From: Anaeromyxobacter dehalogenans 2CP-C
GTDB lineage: Bacteria; Myxococcota; Myxococcia; Myxococcales; Anaeromyxobacteraceae
Assembly: GCF_000013385.1 (NCBI RefSeq)
Contig: NC_007760.1
Span: 1,985,001-2,049,000, forward strand
Reading direction: 5' to 3'
Length of the DNA: 64,000 bases
Positions 3,491 to 49,614 of the stretch are shown piece by piece (position 1 is the first letter of the stretch; each line of letters starts with the position of its first letter). The position numbers and the translations under genes are program-made. The notes below the pieces were generated by a model. That model was not told the origin of the DNA, did no database searches, and saw nothing but the letters and a program-made list of their open reading frames with translations.

Positions 3491-4416
3491 GCGCGGTCCT
3501 CGGCGAGCCGGGCCTCCAGCGCCCGCCCCAGCCCGCGCGCGCTGCCCGCCGCGCCGAGCCGCTCGAGGAAGTCCATCACCTCGACGTAGACGCGGGCCTC
3601 GCGCCGGTCGGCCTCGTCGGCCCCGCCGCCGAGCGGCGCCCGCGCGCGCGCCGCGGCCGCGCCCCCGTCCTCGCAGGCCTTCACCGGCGAGCCGGCGAGC
3701 AGCCCGAGCAGCGGGCGGGACACCGGCCCACGGCGCACGATGGGCACGCCGGCGAGCGCCGCCGAGAGCCGCGCCAGCGCGCCGACCTGGGCGCGCGCGT
3801 CCTCCGGGCCGGCCGGCGCCGGGCAGCGCACGCTCGCGACGTCGGGCGGGGCGCCGCTCGCCGCGAGCGCCTCGAACAGCACCGCGGCCTGGCGCGCCGC
3901 CGGCACCCCAGGGTCGATCGGCACCACGCAGTCCACGCACACCCCGCGCTCCAGCGCCCCCGCCGCCACCTCGGCGAGCACGCGGGCGCGCTCCTCCGGC
4001 GCGACGTCGGAGGCGTCGAGCGCGAGGTGCGTGAGCCCCGCGTCCACCAGGCGCCACGCCTCCTGGCAGGCGCGGTCCACCTGCATGGCCGCCTCGCCGT
4101 CCACCCGCACCTCGGCGGAGAGGAAGATGGGCAGCCCGGCCGCGACCTCGTCCGCGGCCGCGGTCACGGTGGCGAACCAGGGCTCCGGCGCGACGCCGGG
4201 CGGGAGCGCCAGCCCGAGCGCGCTGCCCAGCTCCTTCGCCGCGACCAGGGCGGCGCGCGCCACCGCCGCGGACGGTGCCGCCACCAGCGGGAGCGCCGTC
4301 CCCAGCTCCATGGCCGGGCCCATCAGCTCGCGCAGCGACAGCGGGCAGGCGCCGCTGTGGGGCGGCAACCGGCCGAGCACGCCGGGCGGACGGAACGCGA
4401 GGATCCGCGTGAGCAC
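3487..4416 (-). CDS. Hypothetical protein, probable TIM-barrel enzyme
   Basis: The 309-aa product has no motif I can assign to a named enzyme. Alternating strand-helix units (LPIFLSAEVRVDG, LTHLALDASDV, VCVDCVVPIDPG, VASVRCPAPAGP, VPIVRRGPVSRPLLG) look like a (beta/alpha)8 barrel of the aldolase or pterin-binding type. Catalysis is not evident. The chosen start is GTG 4416, with TATGAA five bases upstream (4422-4427), so the mRNA may be leaderless. It overlaps rsmD by four bases and heads the rsmD-coaD unit, which suggests co-expression but not function. Confidence 0.7.
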   Translation of the reverse strand: MLTRILAFRPPGVLGRLPPHSGACPLSLRELMGPAMELGTALPLVAAPSAAVARAALVAAKELGSALGLALPPGVAPEPWFATVTAAADEVAAGLPIFLSAEVRVDGEAAMQVDRACQEAWRLVDAGLTHLALDASDVAPEERARVLAEVAAGALERGVCVDCVVPIDPGVPAARQAAVLFEALAASGAPPDVASVRCPAPAGPEDARAQVGALARLSAALAGVPIVRRGPVSRPLLGLLAGSPVKACEDGGAAAARARAPLGGGADEADRREARVYVEVMDFLERLGAAGSARGLGRALEARLAEDRA

Positions 4417-4472: not shown

Positions 4473-5501
4473 TCAGTGCCGGTGCACGTCGTCCACGTGC
4501 GCGTACTCGGCCGACTCGATCTGGAGCGTGGTGTGGTCGATCCCGTAGCGGCGCCGCAGGTCCGCCTTCACCGCGGTGAGGATCTCGTCGTTGCGGCCCA
4601 TGCTCCCCGCCTCGACCACCAGGTGCGCGGAGAGCGAGAGCATGCCGCTCGAGATCGTCCAGATGTGCAGGTCGTGCACGGCGACGACGCCCGGACAGCA
4701 CTCCATCTGCGCGCCGATGATCCCGGCGTCGAGGTGCGCGGGCACGCTCTCCATCAGGATGTCGGTGATCTCGAGGATGAGGCGCACCGCGCCCCAGAGG
4801 ATGAGGAGCGCGATCGCGAGCGAGAGCACCGGGTCGATCCAGCGGAGGTCCGGGCGGATGCCCATCACCACCGCGCCCGCCAGGATCGCCACCGAGGAGA
4901 TGGTGTCGGAGACGACGTGCAGGAACGCCGAGCGCGCGTTGAGGGAGTGCTCGCCGTGCAGGAACCAGAGGATGGCGAGGTTCGCGGCGAGGCCGACGCC
5001 GGCCACGAACGCCATGAGCTCGAGCCGGATGGGCGGTCCCGGGTCGCGCAGCCGCTGGATCGCCTCCCAGGCGATCCAGCCCGAGAGCACCACCAGCGCG
5101 CCCACGTTGAGCTGCGCCCCGAGCACCTCGGCGCGGCGGTAGCCGAAGGTGCGCTTGTCGTCGGCGGGCCGCGTGGAGAGCCAGGCGGCGACGAGCGCGA
5201 GCCCGAGCGCGCCCGCGTCGGTGAGCATGTGGCCGGCGTCGGAGACGAGCGCGAGCGAGCCCGACATCCAGCCGCCCACCGCCTCGGCGATCATGATGGT
5301 GGCGGTGAGCCCGAGCGAGATGCCGAGCCGCCGCAGGCTGGTCCCCGCCCCGTGCGCGCCGTGCTGGTGCGCCCGCTCGTGATCGGCGTGGTGGAGGCCG
5401 CAGGCGCCCTGCTGCTCGCCGGGCCACTCCCGGGCCCCTCCCGGCCCCGCCGTGGACGAGGGCTCGTGCGCTCCGTGGACGTGCGGGTGGCCGTGCGACA
5501 T
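4473..5501 (-). CDS. Cation diffusion facilitator (Zn/Cd/Co exporter)
   Basis: The 342-aa inner-membrane CDF transporter resembles ZitB/CzcD. Residues 1-50 form a histidine-rich cytoplasmic tail (HGHPHVHGAH, HHADHERAHQHGAHG) that probably buffers metal. Six membrane segments follow; TM2 carries SDAGHMLTDA (D88, H91, D95) and TM5 carries HVVSDT, the paired HxxxD metal sites. The C-terminal ferredoxin-like domain contains VHDLHIWTISSG. A GGAGG ribosome site precedes the ATG at 5501, and a TAGACT hexamer lies at 5526-5531. It likely exports Zn2+ by proton antiport; metal specificity is inferred. Confidence 0.93.
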   Translation of the reverse strand: MSHGHPHVHGAHEPSSTAGPGGAREWPGEQQGACGLHHADHERAHQHGAHGAGTSLRRLGISLGLTATIMIAEAVGGWMSGSLALVSDAGHMLTDAGALGLALVAAWLSTRPADDKRTFGYRRAEVLGAQLNVGALVVLSGWIAWEAIQRLRDPGPPIRLELMAFVAGVGLAANLAILWFLHGEHSLNARSAFLHVVSDTISSVAILAGAVVMGIRPDLRWIDPVLSLAIALLILWGAVRLILEITDILMESVPAHLDAGIIGAQMECCPGVVAVHDLHIWTISSGMLSLSAHLVVEAGSMGRNDEILTAVKADLRRRYGIDHTTLQIESAEYAHVDDVHRH

Positions 5502-5628
5502 TCCGCTTGAACCTCCGGGCCGTGCAGTCTACGCCATGCTCCATGGACGCGCACGCGCGGGCGGCGCGGCAAGCCCCGCCGCATCGCGCGCGGGCGCGCC
5601 CGCCGCCGGCGCCACGCACGGGGACTCG

Positions 5629-6591
5629 ATGGAACGCACCGAGGCACAGGAGGCCATCGCCCGCGACGGCACGCGCCTCCACTGGACCAACCACGGCGCC
5701 GGCGAGCCCGCGGTGGTGCTGACCGACGGCATCGGCTGCGCCGGCTACGTCTGGCGGGCGCTCGAGCCCGCGCTCGCCGGCCGCCACCGGACCATCCACT
5801 GGAACTACCGCGGCCACGGCCTGAGCGCCCCGCCCGCCGACCCGGCCCGGGTCGGCCTGGAAGACTGCGTGGACGACCTGCTGGCGGTGCTCGACGCCGC
5901 CGGCGAGCGATCGGCCGTGATCGCCGGCCACTCCATGGGCGTGCAGGTCGCGCTCGAGCTGCACCGGCGGGCCCCCGGGCGCGTGCGGGCGCTCGTGCTG
6001 GTGTGCGGCGCGCCCGGCCGGCCCATCGACACGTTCCACGACTCGCCCGTGCTCCGGCTGGCGTTCCCGTTCGCGCGGGCGCTGGTGGAGCGGTTCCCCG
6101 AGGCGGTGCGGACCGGGTTCCGGGTGCTCCTCCCGAGCGAGCTCGCCATGCAGTACGCGCTGCAGTTCGAGGTGGACCGCGACCGCGTGCAGCGCGCCGA
6201 CCTCACCCGCTACTTCGACGACCTCTCGCGCGTGGAGCCCACGCTGTTCGTGCGCATGCTCGCCTCCGCCGCCGAGCACGACTGCCTGCCCCACCTCCAC
6301 GAGGTGGACGTGCCGACGCTCGTCGTCGCCGGCGAGCGCGACTCGTTCACGCCGCTCCGCCTCTCCGAGCGCATGCACGCGGAGATCCCCGGCAGCGAGC
6401 TGCTGGTCGTGCCCGGCGGCACGCACGTCGCGCCGCTGGAGGCGCCCGATCTCGTGGCGGAGCGCGTGCTCGGGTTCCTCGACGCGCGCGTGCCGCCGCC
6501 CCGTGCCCGCAAGCGCGGTCCGCCCGCCCCGAAGCGCGGCCGTCCCGCCGCCAAGCGCCGCCGTCCCGCCGCGGCCCGGCGCCCCGAGTGA
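5629..6591 (+). CDS. Alpha/beta hydrolase with basic C-terminal tail
   Basis: This predicted alpha/beta-hydrolase is 320 aa long. The nucleophile elbow is AGHSMGVQ, the acid probably the Asp of GERDSFTP, and the base the His of GGTHVAPLEAP. An oxyanion-region sequence, LTDGIGCAGYVWRALEP, precedes. The last 27 residues are unusual, being nearly all Lys, Arg, Pro and Ala (PKRGRPAAKRRRPAA), like AT-hook or histone-H1-type tails. Substrate is unknown. The start at 5629 is where family similarity begins; ATGs further upstream would add low-complexity sequence. The stop overlaps the next gene's GTG (GTGA). Confidence 0.85.
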   Translation: MERTEAQEAIARDGTRLHWTNHGAGEPAVVLTDGIGCAGYVWRALEPALAGRHRTIHWNYRGHGLSAPPADPARVGLEDCVDDLLAVLDAAGERSAVIAGHSMGVQVALELHRRAPGRVRALVLVCGAPGRPIDTFHDSPVLRLAFPFARALVERFPEAVRTGFRVLLPSELAMQYALQFEVDRDRVQRADLTRYFDDLSRVEPTLFVRMLASAAEHDCLPHLHEVDVPTLVVAGERDSFTPLRLSERMHAEIPGSELLVVPGGTHVAPLEAPDLVAERVLGFLDARVPPPRARKRGPPAPKRGRPAAKRRRPAAARRPE

Positions 6592-9500
6592 CCGCCCCCG
6601 CGCCCCGCGACGCCCGCCCGGCGGGCCGCGCCCCTCCGCGCCGCGCGCCCGGCGCCGCGATCGCCGTCGCCGTCGCCGTCGCCGTCGCCCTGGCCTGCGC
6701 CGCCGCGCTCGCGCTCTTGCCCGCCGCCGCGCGCGCCCAGCTCTACGACCCGGCGTTCCGGTGGCGGACGATCGAGACCCCGCACTTCCGCGTGCACCAC
6801 CACCAGGGCGAGGAGGCGCTCGCGCAGGAGGTGGCTCGCGCCGCCGAGCGCGCGCACGCGATCCTCTCGCCCGTGCTCGGCTTCGCGCCGCGGGAGCGCA
6901 CCGAGGTCGTCCTCTCCGACGACACCGACGACGCGAACGGCCTCGCCACGCCGCTGCCGTACGACACCATCCGGCTCTACGCCGTCCCGCCGCCCGGGCT
7001 CTCCGAGCTGAACGACTACCGGGACTGGGTCTCCAGCCTGGTGTTCCACGAGTACGTCCACATCCTGCACCTCGACCACGTCGGCGGGCTGCCCGCGCTC
7101 GCGAACATGGTGTTCGGCAAGCTGTTCGTGCCGAACGGCCTCACGCCGAGCTGGATGGCCGAGGGGCTCGCGGTGCTGCACGAGGCCGACGGCGAGGCCG
7201 TGGCAGGCACCGGCCGCAACGCCAGCGCCATCCACGACATGTACGCGCGGGCGCTCGCGCTCGACGGCCCGTTCCCGCGGCTCGACCAGATCTCGAACCC
7301 CATGCTCGAGTGGCCGCTCGGCTCCGCCCCGTACCTGCTCGGCGGGCGCTTCATGGCGTTCCTGCGGGCCCGGTACGGCGACGCCGCCATCGCCGCGTTC
7401 GTCGCCGACCAGGGCTCGCAGGTGTGGCCGTACGCGCCGAGCTGGGCCGGCGCCCGCGCGTTCGACGGGCGGGACTTCCCCTCGCTCTGGGCCGAGTACG
7501 CCGAGGAGGAGCGGCGCCACGCCGAGGCCGTTCGCGCCCGGGTCCACGAGCGTCCCGTGACCGTGCCCACCCGCCTCACGCGCGCCGGTGGGCGGGTGGA
7601 GACGCCGCGCTGGTCGCCCGACGGGAGCTACCTCGCGTACCAGAAGCGCGACCTCGACCGCCGGCCCGGCACGTACCGCGTGACGCCCGCCGGCGCCGAC
7701 CTCGGGCTCGCGATCACCGTGGACGCGAACGGCGCGCTCTCGCTCGCCTCGCCGCGGGAGGCGGTGGTGGCGATCGGCGAGGTCTGGCGCCTGCACCGGA
7801 CCTACGACGACCTGTGGGCGGTGGACCTCGTGCGCGGCGCGCGGCGCCGGCTCACCGACGGCGAGCGCGCCGGCGATCCCGCCGTCGTGCCCGGCGGCGG
7901 CGCGGTGGTGTACGTGCGCCACGAGGCCGGCGGGCGGATGGCGCTGGTGCGGCGGAGCCTCCCGCCCGCGCCCATGGTCCCCGAGGACGTGACGCTCCGT
8001 GAACGGCGCGACGAGCTGGCGGTCCCTCCTCCCGCGCAGGTCGAGGTGCTGTTCGCCCGCCCCGGCGCGCAGGTCTACGCGCCCGCGCCGTCGCCCTCGC
8101 CCGACGGCCAGCGGATCGCGTTCGAGCTGCAGGAGGGCGGGCGGCGCGATCTCGCGCTGTGGGAGCACGGCGAGCTCCGGCGCGTCACCGACGACGACGC
8201 CCTCGACACCGGGCCCGCCTGGACGCCCGACGGCAGGTACCTCCTGTTCGCCTCCGACCGCGGCGGCGTCTACGACCTGTACGCGTGGGAAGCCGCCACC
8301 GGTGCGATCCGCCAGGTGACGAACGTGGAGACCGGCGCGTTCCAGCCCGCCGTGTCGCCCGACGGGAAGACCATCGCGTTCGTCACGTTCGGCCGCGACG
8401 GCTACGACGTGGCGACCGTGCCGTTCGATCCCGCCACCTGGCTCGACCCGACCCCCTCGCAGCCCGCGCCCGCGGCAAGCGCCGTGCCCCCCGGGGCGCC
8501 CGCGCCCCTGCCCTCGCGTCCGTACCGCGCGCTCGAGACCGTCGGCCCGAGGTGGTGGCTGCCGCTGTGGGGCAGCGACGGCGCCGGGAGCATCTACGGC
8601 GCCATGACCGGCGGCACCGACGTGCTCGCGCGGCACGCGTGGGCGCTGCAGGCGTGGTGGAGCGAGGGCGGGCGCGAGCCCGGGTACGCGTTCTCGTACC
8701 AGGGCGGCTGGTCGTGGCCGACGATCGATCTCTCGTCGGTGCGGTACTTCGACTCCGCGCCCGGCGGCCGCGGCGTCGAGTCGGTGTGGACGCCGCTCGC
8801 CGCCGGCCTCGGCTTCACGTTCCCCGGGCTCGCCGACACGCTCAGCTTCCGGCTCGGCTGGGCCGGGACGTCGTACGACGTGCTCGGCGAGACGCGCCGC
8901 GCGCCCACCTCGGACTGGCTCGAGTGGCGCGACGGGTATCTCTCCGAGGCGTCCTTCCGCGCCGTGTACAGCGACGCGCGCCGCTACGTGCGCTCCATCT
9001 CGCCCGAGGAGGGCCGGACCGTGGCGCTGACCGTGCGCGCCGCCGACCCCACCATCGGCAGCGACTTCGGCCTCGCGCGGGCGCGCCTGAGCGTCGCCCA
9101 GTACCTGCGGGTCCCCGGCACGCGCCACACCGTGCTCGCGCTCCGGCTCGCCGGCGGCGTGGCGGAAGGGTCCATCGGCGGGCGGGCGCCGTACGAGCTC
9201 GGCGGGGCCGCCACGGTGGACCCCGTGGCCGTGGTGATGCAGACCGCCGGCGTCGCGCCAGACCAGCTCCGCGGCTACCCGTACGGCTGGCTCGCCGGGA
9301 CCGCGTTCGCGCTCGGGAACCTCGAGCTGCGCGTCCCGCTGCTCGCGCCCGTGCGCGGGTACTCCACCTGGCCCGTGTTCCTGCGGCGGGTGCACGGCAG
9401 CGTGTTCGTGGACGCCGGCGACGCGTTCGACCTCCCCGGCGAGCTGCCCTTCGCCGGCCACCCGTTCTCGTGGAAGGAGGTGCGCTTCGCCGCCGGCGCC

Positions 9501-44212: not shown

Positions 44213-45787
<1,575 letters not shown>

Positions 45788-45902
45788 GGCCCCTCTCCTG
45801 GGATTGGTCATGTAGAGACGGTCAGTCACGTTCCAGAGGACGCTCGGGCCCGGATTCTATTCCCCGCGCCGCCGTCCGGCCGGCGCGGCGTGGGGCGCGG
45901 CA

Positions 45903-46529
45903 TCACGCGCGCGCCACCTTCCCCACGCGGACCCTGGCGGGGCGGAGCACGCGGTCGCCGACGCGATATCCGGCGCGGATCTCCTGCACCACCGTGCCGT
46001 CCTGCGACGGATCGCCGACGGGGACCGTGTCCACCGCCTCGGCCACGTGGGGGTCGAACGGCTGGCCCAGGGTCGAGATCCGCTCGGCCCCGAGCGCGGC
46101 GATGCGCTGATGCAGCACGCTCAGTGAAAGGCGCACGCCCTCGAGCAGGTGCCCGAGCCGCTCGTCGGTGGGCTCCCCTGGCGCGGAGGCCGCCGCGAGG
46201 GCGCGCTCGAGGTCGTCGGTCGCCTCGAGCAGCGTCTGCGCCACCCCGGCCCGCTCCGCCTCCACGACCCGGGTCCGCTCGCGCTCCAGGCGCTGCCGGA
46301 AGGCCTTGTTGTCCTCGACCAGCGCGGCGTACGCGCGGGTCAGCTCGTCGATCCGGGCGGCCTGCTCGGCCAGGCGCGCCTCCACGGCGGCGCCCTGAGC
46401 CGCCTGCCCGCCCTCCTCGTCCTGCGGCGGGTCGATGGGCTCCCCGTCCTGCCGGAACCGGCGTCGGTCCACCACCTTCACCTGACCCTCCGCGCCCGGC
46501 GCGGAGGCGTCACGGCGTTCGTCTGACAT
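45903..46529 (-). CDS. grpE: GrpE-like nucleotide exchange factor
   Basis: The 208-aa protein has an acidic, variable N-terminus and a long helix (ARLAEQAARIDELTRAYAAL, then DNKAFRQRLERERTRVVE). The beta-wing head domain has the GrpE end signature QPFDPHVAEAVDTVPVGDP and VVQEIRAGYRVGDRVLRPAR. It releases ADP from DnaK in the heat-shock cycle. No dnaK or dnaJ is adjacent, so this may be a divergent or second GrpE. ATG 46529 gives MSDERRDASA. Confidence 0.9.
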   Translation of the reverse strand: MSDERRDASAPGAEGQVKVVDRRRFRQDGEPIDPPQDEEGGQAAQGAAVEARLAEQAARIDELTRAYAALVEDNKAFRQRLERERTRVVEAERAGVAQTLLEATDDLERALAAASAPGEPTDERLGHLLEGVRLSLSVLHQRIAALGAERISTLGQPFDPHVAEAVDTVPVGDPSQDGTVVQEIRAGYRVGDRVLRPARVRVGKVARA

Positions 46530-46586
46530 GTCACGACCTCCGGCAGCCAAGCTAACCAGCGGGAAGGTCGTGTCAAACGACGGGGG

Positions 46587-46814
46587 TCAGGGCGGCGGGG
46601 GCTCGCCGGGGAGCGCGTCCACCTGCTCGCCGCGCGCGTCGCGGATCTCCACCCCGGCCGCGCGCAGGCTGTAGAACAGCAGCCAGCGCTCCGCCGGCGA
46701 GAGGCTCCCGGGCGGCAGCGCGCGATCGATCTCGGCGACCGTCAGGGTGCCGCGCCGGATCCCGATCTGGAAGAGCGCCTTGCGCGCCTCGTGGCTCTCG
46801 CTCCCGTGCCTCAC
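46587..46814 (-). CDS. Stand-alone sigma-70 region 1.1-like domain protein
   Basis: The 75-aa protein resembles region 1.1 of primary sigma factors: EARKALFQIGIRRGTLTVAE, then IDRALPPGSLSPAERWLLFY and SLRAAGVEIRDARGEQ. In full sigma factors this acidic three-helix domain keeps the free factor from binding DNA. A lone copy could act as a regulator or be an unrelated look-alike. It starts 15 bp after the ftsH stop on the same strand, so it is probably in the ftsH operon. Confidence 0.65.
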   Translation of the reverse strand: MRHGSESHEARKALFQIGIRRGTLTVAEIDRALPPGSLSPAERWLLFYSLRAAGVEIRDARGEQVDALPGEPPPP

Positions 46815-46829
46815 CGTCGCGCCGCCTCC

Positions 46830-48938
46830 TCACGGCTCGGGGTCCCGGTCGCCGGGCGCGTGCCCCGCGACCGCCTGCGGGGCCGATCGCCCGAAGCCCG
46901 CGCTCGCGTCCGCCGACGCCGCCACCGGGCGGTTCGGCGTCTCCGGCGGCGACTCCTCGTGGCCGCGCCCCTCGATGGTCCCGGGCCGCACCACCTTCGG
47001 CCCCCACAGGCGCGTGATCTCGTCCTCCTCGATCACCTCGATCGTGAGCAGCCGCGCGGCGAGCGCGTCGAGCCGCTCCCGGTGCTCGCGCACCACCGTC
47101 CGCGCGCGCTCCTGCGCCTCCTCGACGAGCGCCTGCACCTCGCGGTCCACCGCGAGCGCGGTGTGGTCGGAGTAGGACCGGGTCTCGAACCCCTTCACGC
47201 CGAGGAACGTCGGGCCGGCCTGGTCGCCGAGCGACACCGGCCCGAGCGCCCGGCTCATCCCGTAATCGCGCACCATCATGCGCGCCACCGCGGTGGCGTG
47301 CTGCAGGTCGTTGGAGGCGCCGGTGGACGGCTCGCCGAACACCTCCTCCTCGGCGACGCGCCCGCCCATCAGGCCCGCCATGCGGTCCCGCAGCTCGCTG
47401 CGGGTGAGCAGGTACCGGTCCTCCAGCGGGAGCTGGAGCGTGTAGCCCAGCGCGCCCAGGCCGCGCGGGATGATCGAGACCTTCGAGACGCGGTCCGCGA
47501 ACGGCAGCATCCACGACACCAGCGCGTGCCCCGCCTCGTGGAAGGCGACGATCTCCTTCTCCCGCTCGTTGATGCGGCGGCTCTTCTTCTCGAGGCCCGC
47601 CACCACCCGCTCGATGGCCTCCTCGAACTCGGCGCGGGTCACGTGGTTCTTGTTGCGGCGCGCGGCCAGCAGCGCCGCCTCGTTCACCACGTTCGCGAGG
47701 TCGGCGCCGGCGAACCCCGGGGTGCGCGCCGCCACCGAGCGGAGGTCCACGTCCGGCCCGAGCTTCACGTTGCGTGCATGGATCCGGAGGATCTGCTCGC
47801 GCCCGCGCTTGTCGGGCCGGTCCACCAGCACCTGGCGGTCGAAGCGGCCCGGCCGCAGCAGCGCCGGGTCCAGGATCTCGGGGCGGTTCGTGGCGCCCAT
47901 GATGATCAGGCCGGCGCGCGCGTCGAAGCCGTCCATCTCGGCGAGCAGCTGGTTCAGCGTCTGCTCGCGCTCGTCGTGCCCGCCCACGATGCCGGCGTTG
48001 CGCGACTTGCCGAGCGCGTCCAGCTCGTCGATGAACACGATGCAGGGCGCCTTCTGCGTGGCCTGCGCGAACAGGTCGCGCACCCGGGCCGCGCCCACGC
48101 CCACGAACATCTCCACGAACTCCGAGCCGGAGAGCGAGAAGAACGGCACGCCCGCCTCGCCCGCGGTGGCGCGCGCGAGCAGCGTCTTGCCGGTGCCGGG
48201 GGGCCCGACCAGCAGCACGCCCTTCGGGATCCGGCCGCCGAGCCGCCGGTACTTCTCCGGCGTCTTCAGGAACTCGACGATCTCCTGGAGCTCCTCCACG
48301 GCCTCGTCGATGCCGGCCGCGTCCTGGAACGTCACGCCGGTGTCCGGCTCCATGTGGATCCGGGCCCGGGACTTCCCGAACGCCATCACCCCCGGCGGCC
48401 CCTGCCCGAGCTGCCCGGACATGCGCCGCATCACCCAGGCCCAGAACAGCAGCCCGATCGCGATCGGCGCGATCCAGACCCAGAACAGGTCGCCCATGCC
48501 GCCTCCGGCCACCGCGTCGTAGGGCACGCCGGCCTTCTCCACCGCCTGCACCAGGTCGTCGCCGCCGCCCGGGATGCGCGTCGCGACGTAGGGCAGCGCC
48601 TGGCCGTTGCGCTCGCCGTCGCCCTGCGCCGGCTGCGGCTGCGCGCCGCCGCCCTGGGCCGCGCCGGCCTCCACCGGCTTCGGCACCCCGCGGACCCAGT
48701 CCGGCCCGATCACGACGCGCTCGAACGCGCCCTGGCGGACCATCTCCTTGAACTGCGAGTACGGGATGCGCCGCACGCCCACGTCCTGGAACGCGCGGAA
48801 CAGGAAGATCGCGAGCGCGATGAGGACCAGCCACGCCGCCGGCGACGCGAGCGGAATGCGGGACTGGGAGCCGGACCCGCCGGGCCCGCGCCCCCGCTCG
48901 TTGCGCTGCCCGTGGCCCTTCTTCTCGTCTGCCGACAC
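46830..48938 (-). CDS. ftsH: ATP-dependent zinc metalloprotease FtsH
   Basis: This 702-aa membrane AAA+ protease has TM1 at ~33-49 and TM2 at ~152-170. Walker A is GPPGTGKT at 245-252, Walker [13 protein letters not shown], and the second region of homology [20 protein letters not shown]. The zinc site is H469-EAGH-473. The periplasmic loop has a Gln/Gly-rich insertion ([14 protein letters not shown]), and the C-terminus is extended and variable. GTG 48938 is favoured because GGGAGG lies a few bases upstream; 48992 is a longer alternative. It degrades membrane and short-lived regulatory proteins. Confidence 0.95.
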
Positions 48939-49134
48939 CGAGGCCTCCCGCCCCCTTCGCAGGCAATCTGCGCACGTCCGGGGATCGGGCAATCCGGGTA
49001 AGCGCGGAGGGCCCCGGCAGGCTGCTCGCCGTCGGGGGCCTGCGGACGGGTCAGGCGGGGCGGGACCCGGCGCCGGCCCGTGCGGGCGGCGCGGCTCGCG
49101 CGGGCGGCGGCGGCGGCGGCGCGGTGCGGACGGG

Positions 49135-49524
49135 CTACAGGCCGAGCAGCTTCGCGATGCTCTTCTCGTCGGCCGGCGGGAACTCGTACTGATCGAGCTC
49201 GTCCGGCCGGACCCACCGGTGGTCGTGCACGCGGATGTGCTGGATGGGCCCGCGGACCAGGCGGCAGCGGTAGACGCAGAAGTCGATGTCGTAGGCCTCG
49301 TACGCGTGCTCCACGTGGATCACGCGGCCGCCCACCTCGACGCCGATGCCCATCTCCTCGGCGAGCTCGCGCGCCAGCGCCGCGGGGTCGGTCTCACCCG
49401 CCTCCACGCGCCCGCCGGGGAACTCCCACAGCAGCGGCAGCGAGGCGGTGGGCGGGCGCTGGGTGATGAGGTAGCGCCCGTCCTGCTCGATCATCGCTCC
49501 CACCACGCGGATCTTCCGGCGCAT
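49135..49524 (-). CDS. Nudix hydrolase, MutT-like
   Basis: The 129-aa enzyme carries a full Nudix box, [20 protein letters not shown] followed by EMG (GX5EX7REUXEEXGU). It starts with [20 protein letters not shown], as in MutT/8-oxo-dGTP diphosphatases, and ends [20 protein letters not shown]. It likely hydrolyses oxidised or other nucleoside triphosphates. The start at 49524 matches the family; upstream codons are basic filler. Confidence 0.92.
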
Positions 49525-49614
49525 GTCGTGAACGCTCCGTCTGCGGTCCCGTGGTGCCACCGCGCGCGGGAGGGCCGCGCCGCGCGCGTCCAGGGATTGT
49601 AGAATCCGCCCACG

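Follow-up and report, generated by a model that had tools for sequence, protein, structure and literature searches.

The window, by which we mean the whole 64,000-nucleotide stretch of Anaeromyxobacter dehalogenans 2CP-C that was analysed, comes from a genome of 5,013,479 bases on a single contig. Between ftsH and grpE lies a 75-amino acid open reading frame, encoded on the minus strand from 46814 to 46587, the product of which is labeled S11 here. The frame is bounded by stop codons and has none of sigma regions 1.2 to 4 attached to it. It is part of a run of genes in the order NUDIX, ftsH, S11, grpE, htrA, all of which share one direction in the window. From the upstream end, the features are as follows.

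49135..49560, minus strand: NUDIX hydrolase, a conserved upstream neighbor (NUDIX_4, E 2.6e-27; synteny).
46830..48992, minus strand: ftsH paralogue linked to S11, putatively of the Myxococcus xanthus FtsH-D orthologue group (TIGR01241, 784 bits; synteny; orthologue group).
46825..46830, minus strand: AGGAGG, a Shine-Dalgarno-like sequence of S11 that has one base in common with the ftsH stop codon (sequence reading).
46587..46814, minus strand: S11, a stand-alone sigma region 1.1-like protein of 75 aa with a GTG start (open reading frame; PF03979, 22.4 bits; orthologues in 103 of 195 phylum genomes; AlphaFold2 pLDDT 86.7, pTM 0.74).
46549..46576, minus strand: promoter-like element TTGACA-N16-TAGCTT between S11 and grpE (unique in the window when one mismatch is allowed; 0.06 matches expected).
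45903..46529, minus strand: grpE, with a probable ATG start at 46529, the open reading frame being listed from 46550 (PF01025, E 3.1e-33).
44213..45829, minus strand: HtrA/DegP-type protease with PDZ domains, a conserved downstream neighbor (Trypsin_2 and PDZ_2 Pfam matches; synteny).

The start of S11 lies 15 nt behind the ftsH stop codon, and the AGGAGG sequence is ten bases 5' of the GTG. An earlier note on this DNA had placed a 75-aa protein right after ftsH and beside grpE; this position is correct, grpE being next on the same strand, and the frame at 46587-46814 is real. The note gives no strand, which is the minus one. Comparison of its first 66 codons with those of seven Anaeromyxobacter-type relatives gives a dN/dS of 0.07 to 0.44, and this purifying selection, together with conservation in 103 of 195 genomes, rules out a chance open reading frame. 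Plus-strand antisense frames of hundreds of codons over the same stretch were rejected as high-GC artefacts, the conserved protein being that of the minus strand. The window FtsH scored 784 bits against the FtsH family model TIGR01241 (cut-off 600) and is one of three FtsH copies in the genome. The other two are encoded near 1.72 Mb (L161, contig C1) and near 4.87 Mb (L160). The former sits in a tilS-ftsH-folP cluster by reading of the open reading frames and is probably the housekeeping copy.

A TTGACA-N16-TA(G/C)NTT element was found behind S11 at 43 of 62 loci with the strict pattern and at 46 with a looser one (39 and 42, respectively, of 57 distinct genomes). The spacer is 16 bases every time, across families. 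The conserved element seems to be a putative promoter of grpE itself, and since grpE thus has its own putative start, ftsH and S11 are left as an upstream pair.

S11 is confined to the order of the window among the 195 genomes of the phylum that were searched, occurring in 103 of 145 genomes of that order and in none of 50 outside it. The search matched 105 genomes, of which two (G051 and G044, E above 0.004) were not counted, and weak or RpoD matches were dropped. The members are 69 to 128 aa long with starts chosen by script. A single-sequence scan of genome contigs returned 10 relatives of S11, titled Anaeromyxobacter (6), Myxococcales (1), and Deltaproteobacteria (3). The nearest named relative of the window protein, at 97% identity, is from Anaeromyxobacter sp. 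PSR-1. Viral contigs scanned with the S11 alignment gave six pattern matches and zero relatives, and plasmids searched by tblastn with S11 gave no match; a phage or plasmid origin was rejected on these results at the settings used.

The earlier note had seen in the 75-aa protein a resemblance to the auto-inhibitory domain of primary sigma factors, and a profile search bears this out. The window protein matched Pfam PF03979 (Sigma70_r1_1) at 22.4 bits and E 1.2e-4, falling 0.1 bit short of the curated cut-off (22.5). All 57 aligned S11 members, that of the window included, matched the same family at E <= 1, the best E being 9.7e-10. Every other Pfam family was matched by at most 14 of the 57 members and never below E 0.002, and a search of NCBIfam with the window S11 gave no match. 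At E <= 10 the window genome contains only two PF03979 matches, S11 and RpoD (83.8 bits). Alignment of the S11 cores with region 1.1 of 31 Myxococcota RpoD loci by hhalign, several of these loci being near-identical, gave a probability of 96.6 and an E of 6.1e-10 (one comparison) over 52 columns. A profile search of solved structures with S11 placed SigA first (E 0.001), followed by RpoD chains (E 0.03 to 0.9).

The AlphaFold2 model of S11, computed from 57 sequences, has a pLDDT of 86.7 and a pTM of 0.74. It comprises helices at residues 3-21, 26-32, and 40-52 and strands at 23-25 and 56-58. The earlier note had counted a fold unlike region 1.1, together with a lack of interaction, as evidence against its reading; the predicted fold is region 1.1-like, sigma-1.1 entries ranking first in both Foldseek and VIA-align. 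Foldseek placed an integrative model of SigA first and the sigma-1.1 domain of B. subtilis second, with probabilities of 1.00 and 0.98 and E values of 0.029 and 0.41; nothing in the PDB was matched by Foldseek at E <= 0.001. In VIA-align, three sigma-1.1 entries scored Z values of 7.8, 7.7, and 5.5, and the next entry, the first unrelated one, scored 3.4. A Z value under 8 is weak alone. Because sequence evidence joins the fold match, the homology of S11 to sigma region 1.1, by profile, profile-profile alignment, and predicted fold, is taken as secure.

S11 is not a region 1.1 domain still fused to a sigma factor. The window genome has an RpoD with its own region 1.1, and S11 matches (at least 92 bits) are clear of all others (below 26 bits), which fall in open frames 619 to 1375 codons long and were taken as RpoD. 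Of the 103 genomes with S11, 101 also have a strong PF03979 match assigned to RpoD (E 2.5e-18 or better); G029 and G110 are the exceptions. One genome, G156, has a third PF03979 match (L233, C1215:16884-17060; 35.9 bits) in a 288-codon open frame, distinct from its RpoD and its S11. It may be a fragment of a sigma factor or a further stand-alone region 1.1.

The framework common to S11 and RpoD region 1.1 consists of G18, G22, L24, T25, E28, A32, L33, and P34 and the terminal V/I55-E56-I/V57-x-D59. The two differ in charge and in helix 3. Region 1.1 tends to be acidic and is a placeholder for DNA in RNA polymerase, according to PMC3778932. In the 58-aa core, counted from sequence rather than from surface, the net charge of S11 is +0.4 (range -5 to +4, n = 57) versus -9.5 for RpoD (range -10 to -8, n = 31). 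The acidity that is linked to the role of region 1.1 as a DNA stand-in is therefore absent from the S11 core. These values are for the core alone; whole S11 proteins with their tails, which are variable in length and sequence by eye past about residue 60, range from -15 to +4, and some members are acidic overall. In helix 3, the RpoD sequence Q-I-D-D-V-M-S-M-F (29 of 30 domains) contrasts with E-R-W-L-L-(Y/F)-Y-S-L in S11. At two positions where 29 of 30 RpoD domains have Asp, all 57 S11 proteins have Trp-44 and Leu-45, and the RpoD Ile, Ser, and Met columns have become Arg-43 (57/57), Tyr-48 (53/57), and Ser-49 (57/57). Residues R43, W44, L45, L46, S49, and L50 are invariant in the 57 members, as are R11, K12, L14, F15, L24, and E28. 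The replacement of acidic or polar positions on one helix face by W44 and Y48 suggests, as read from the alignment, an exposed contact.

The neighborhood of S11 was compared in 57 distinct genomes. Upstream of S11 and in the same direction, 53 of them have ftsH; downstream, 53 have htrA and 44 have grpE. The misses include contig edges, one of the four ftsH misses among them. Among 13 distinct genomes of the window's family, 10 have an S11 start that overlaps the ftsH stop by 4 nt; in the remaining 3, which include that of the window, S11 begins 15 nt after the stop. When all 195 genomes were searched with the window FtsH, the linked orthologue group scored 677-1600 bits in 103 of them. The next score below the group was 656.6 bits (G018), and the other FtsH copies listed scored 629 bits or less. 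S11 and the linked FtsH were both present in 101 genomes and both absent from 90, with two genomes having S11 only and two FtsH only; within the order alone the corresponding numbers are 101, 41, two, and one. These co-inheritance counts are inflated by shared ancestry and adjacency; Fisher P values computed for the table treat genomes as independent and carry no weight in the argument. As five FtsH candidates per genome were scored, the absences are softer than in the re-search described next.

The linked FtsH was searched for again in 23 S11-negative genomes of at least 95% completeness, 22 of the order and one of the class. It was absent from 22 of the 23. In contrast, 18 of these genomes kept grpE with htrA downstream, namely G140 and 17 of the 22 without the FtsH. 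S11 therefore tracks the linked FtsH and not the grpE-htrA cluster. Three genomes of the window's own family (G044, G045, and G046) have the locus in the form NUDIX-grpE-htrA, in which just ftsH and S11 are gone. Four families (f1, f2, f6, and f8, by label) contain both presence and absence of S11 and the linked FtsH, which speaks for the pair having been lost or gained jointly several times. The association with FtsH on which the earlier note had built holds across the order, and also in two genomes (G155 and G055) that keep both genes although these sit on separate contigs and the 5 kb upstream of S11 contain no FtsH. The S11 gene of G055 (L224, about 5237-5404) has no ftsH, grpE, or htrA near it and adjoins an open reading frame at 5608-6894 on the minus strand that is cation/H+ antiporter-like by eye.

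The exceptions are few. Genomes with S11 only are G020, which is 61% complete, and G026, where a divergent S11 (L084, 2540-2812, minus strand) lies in a NUDIX-S11-htrA locus devoid of ftsH and grpE and the linked FtsH is absent from the genome. Those with the linked FtsH only are G140 and G164; the contig of the latter stops 117 nt behind ftsH, so that absence of S11 is not established there. In G140 (L220, about 3790-3885; completeness 100), ftsH directly precedes grpE and then htrA without S11 in between, showing that the linked FtsH can exist alone. The sole FtsH match of a further genome, G109, is a contig-edge fragment that scored 661 bits at best to other FtsH copies versus 390 bits to the linked group (97 FtsH proteins compared) and is assigned to the former. 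Residue 331 of FtsH (window numbering) is Asn in 52 of 52 S11-linked proteins and Ser in the protein of G140, a single case. The FtsH tails are alike within groups, and no common motif that could dock S11 was seen by eye across all linked FtsH proteins. Taken together, ftsH and S11 appear to form a module of two genes, from which a few genomes depart in one direction or the other.

The M. xanthus literature offers a possible link to function. FtsH-D is MXAN_4333 and degrades PopD under the control of ppGpp (PMC4320627); the heat-induced GrpE is MXAN_4331 (PMC11019930); and a 2019 paper has the stringent response lead to PopD degradation "by an unknown mechanism" (PMC6434023). In family f6, taken as that of Myxococcus, the order FtsH-S11-GrpE was found at all 24 loci read. 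The M. xanthus counterpart of the window-type FtsH is probably FtsH-D. As one tag lies between MXAN_4333 and MXAN_4331, and f6 has S11 at that position, the M. xanthus orthologue of S11 should be MXAN_4332. A literature search for this tag, with a coverage that lacks most subscription journals, found no paper.

The reading that we prefer, and to which we give about an even chance, is that S11 is an adaptor or regulatory partner of FtsH-D-type FtsH rather than a plug of RNA polymerase. On this view, a region 1.1 domain would have become detached from its sigma factor and turned into a small soluble protein that serves a single membrane protease as its partner. It would probably be translated from the ftsH message, assuming that the two genes share one. 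The helix E42-R43-W44-L45-L46-Y/F47-Y48-S49-L50, with R11, K12, and F15 of helix 1, may bind either a client or the cytosolic portion of FtsH, and S11 bound in this way might then, by analogy with known adaptors, set the timing or the targets of degradation. The clients in M. xanthus would include PopD, destroyed by FtsH-D after the stringent response. The conserved helix could also contact something else, for example RNA polymerase. A more specific version makes S11 the missing FtsH-D switch, reporting the transcription or (p)ppGpp state and holding or releasing FtsH-D so that starvation leads to PopD destruction and C-signal production in M. xanthus, with a comparable job in Anaeromyxobacter; we regard this version as a long shot. 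In S11, the primary-sigma domain that controls DNA access to RNA polymerase occurs as a free protein, one whose core no longer carries the DNA-like charge and which accompanies a single protease. Were it an FtsH-D partner, a single small gene would be a handle on the starvation control of FtsH-D in M. xanthus, and a transcription domain would have been clearly re-used in proteolysis.

The earlier note had also suggested that the protein could modulate sigma-70. Of its overall interpretation, the kinship with region 1.1 and the link with FtsH stand; action on sigma-70 as an auto-inhibitory domain is unsupported, the acidity of the core being gone. A broader transcription role, in which S11 binds RNA polymerase or sigma as region 1.1 does and adjusts how promoters open under stress, with the ftsH adjacency only timing its production, is rather unlikely. 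Genuine homology and fold speak for it, as do the acidic tails of some members and the stress genes next to S11, M. xanthus GrpE being heat-induced (PMC11019930). According to PMC3778932, isolated E. coli region 1.1 works in trans on RNA polymerase lacking it when T7 Gp2 is present, but gave no inhibition without Gp2. The fall in core charge from -9.5 to +0.4 counts against such a role, as does the RpoD-type region 1.1 that 101 of 103 S11 genomes already have, and it fails to predict joint loss with one FtsH paralogue.

Genetic linkage and co-inheritance would also be in keeping with S11 as a regulated substrate of the linked FtsH, its level being controlled by the neighboring protease while the small protein itself does other work, and the variable tails after about residue 60 agree with this. 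Substrates, however, are not usually lost along with their protease, no degron was noticed in S11 by eye, and the residues of helices 1 and 3 that never vary call for a binding function in addition to being degraded. We consider this account improbable, and favor a partner over an ordinary substrate because co-inheritance with one FtsH is near-obligate, an observation with which a substrate is still compatible. A nucleic-acid-binding or general stress protein merely placed in a heat-shock cluster would suit the near-neutral core and the neighborhood of stress genes. It is nevertheless improbable, given that S11-less genomes keep grpE-htrA in 18 of 23 cases and the linked FtsH in only one, and that beyond PF03979 no Pfam family reached more than 14 of the 57 members or an E below 0.002.

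Several known systems invite comparison with S11 and its FtsH. E. coli FtsH has a known relation to sigma-32; the window FtsH is a paralogue with two other copies in the genome, and so this knowledge need not transfer. The N-terminal domain of the RNA polymerase delta subunit (HARE-HTH) is a small separate domain said to be region 1.1-like in fold, and delta has a long acidic tail. HARE-HTH or delta appeared neither among the Pfam families of the 57 members nor among the Foldseek and VIA-align matches listed, although such lists do not exclude kinship, and a literature search on the likeness found no paper. A paper on a stand-alone region 1.1 protein was likewise not among the papers listed (titles and abstract starts, with most subscription journals outside the coverage), and no paper on such a protein was found in the literature on an FtsH/GrpE/heat-shock operon in M. 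xanthus.

Small modulators or adaptors of FtsH in other bacteria include HflK/HflC, YccA, LapB/YciM, and SpoVM, which are membrane-bound or of unrelated folds. Their likeness to the proposed role of S11 would be that of a dedicated partner tuning one FtsH; to our knowledge, none of them is a sigma-1.1 domain. The M. xanthus FtsH-D-PopD pathway resembles the window in having one tag between MXAN_4333 and MXAN_4331, just as S11 lies between FtsH and GrpE in f6. The closest relative is sigma-70 region 1.1 itself (PF03979; solved, for example, in 5mww and 2k6x and within 4llg), with which S11 shares the profile, the predicted fold, the G-x-L-T-x-x-E-I-x-x-A-L-P core, and the V/I-E-I/V-x-D end. Unlike region 1.1, S11 is unattached to a sigma factor, has lost the acidity of the core, is encoded after ftsH, and has ERWLL(Y/F)YSL in place of an acidic helix 3.
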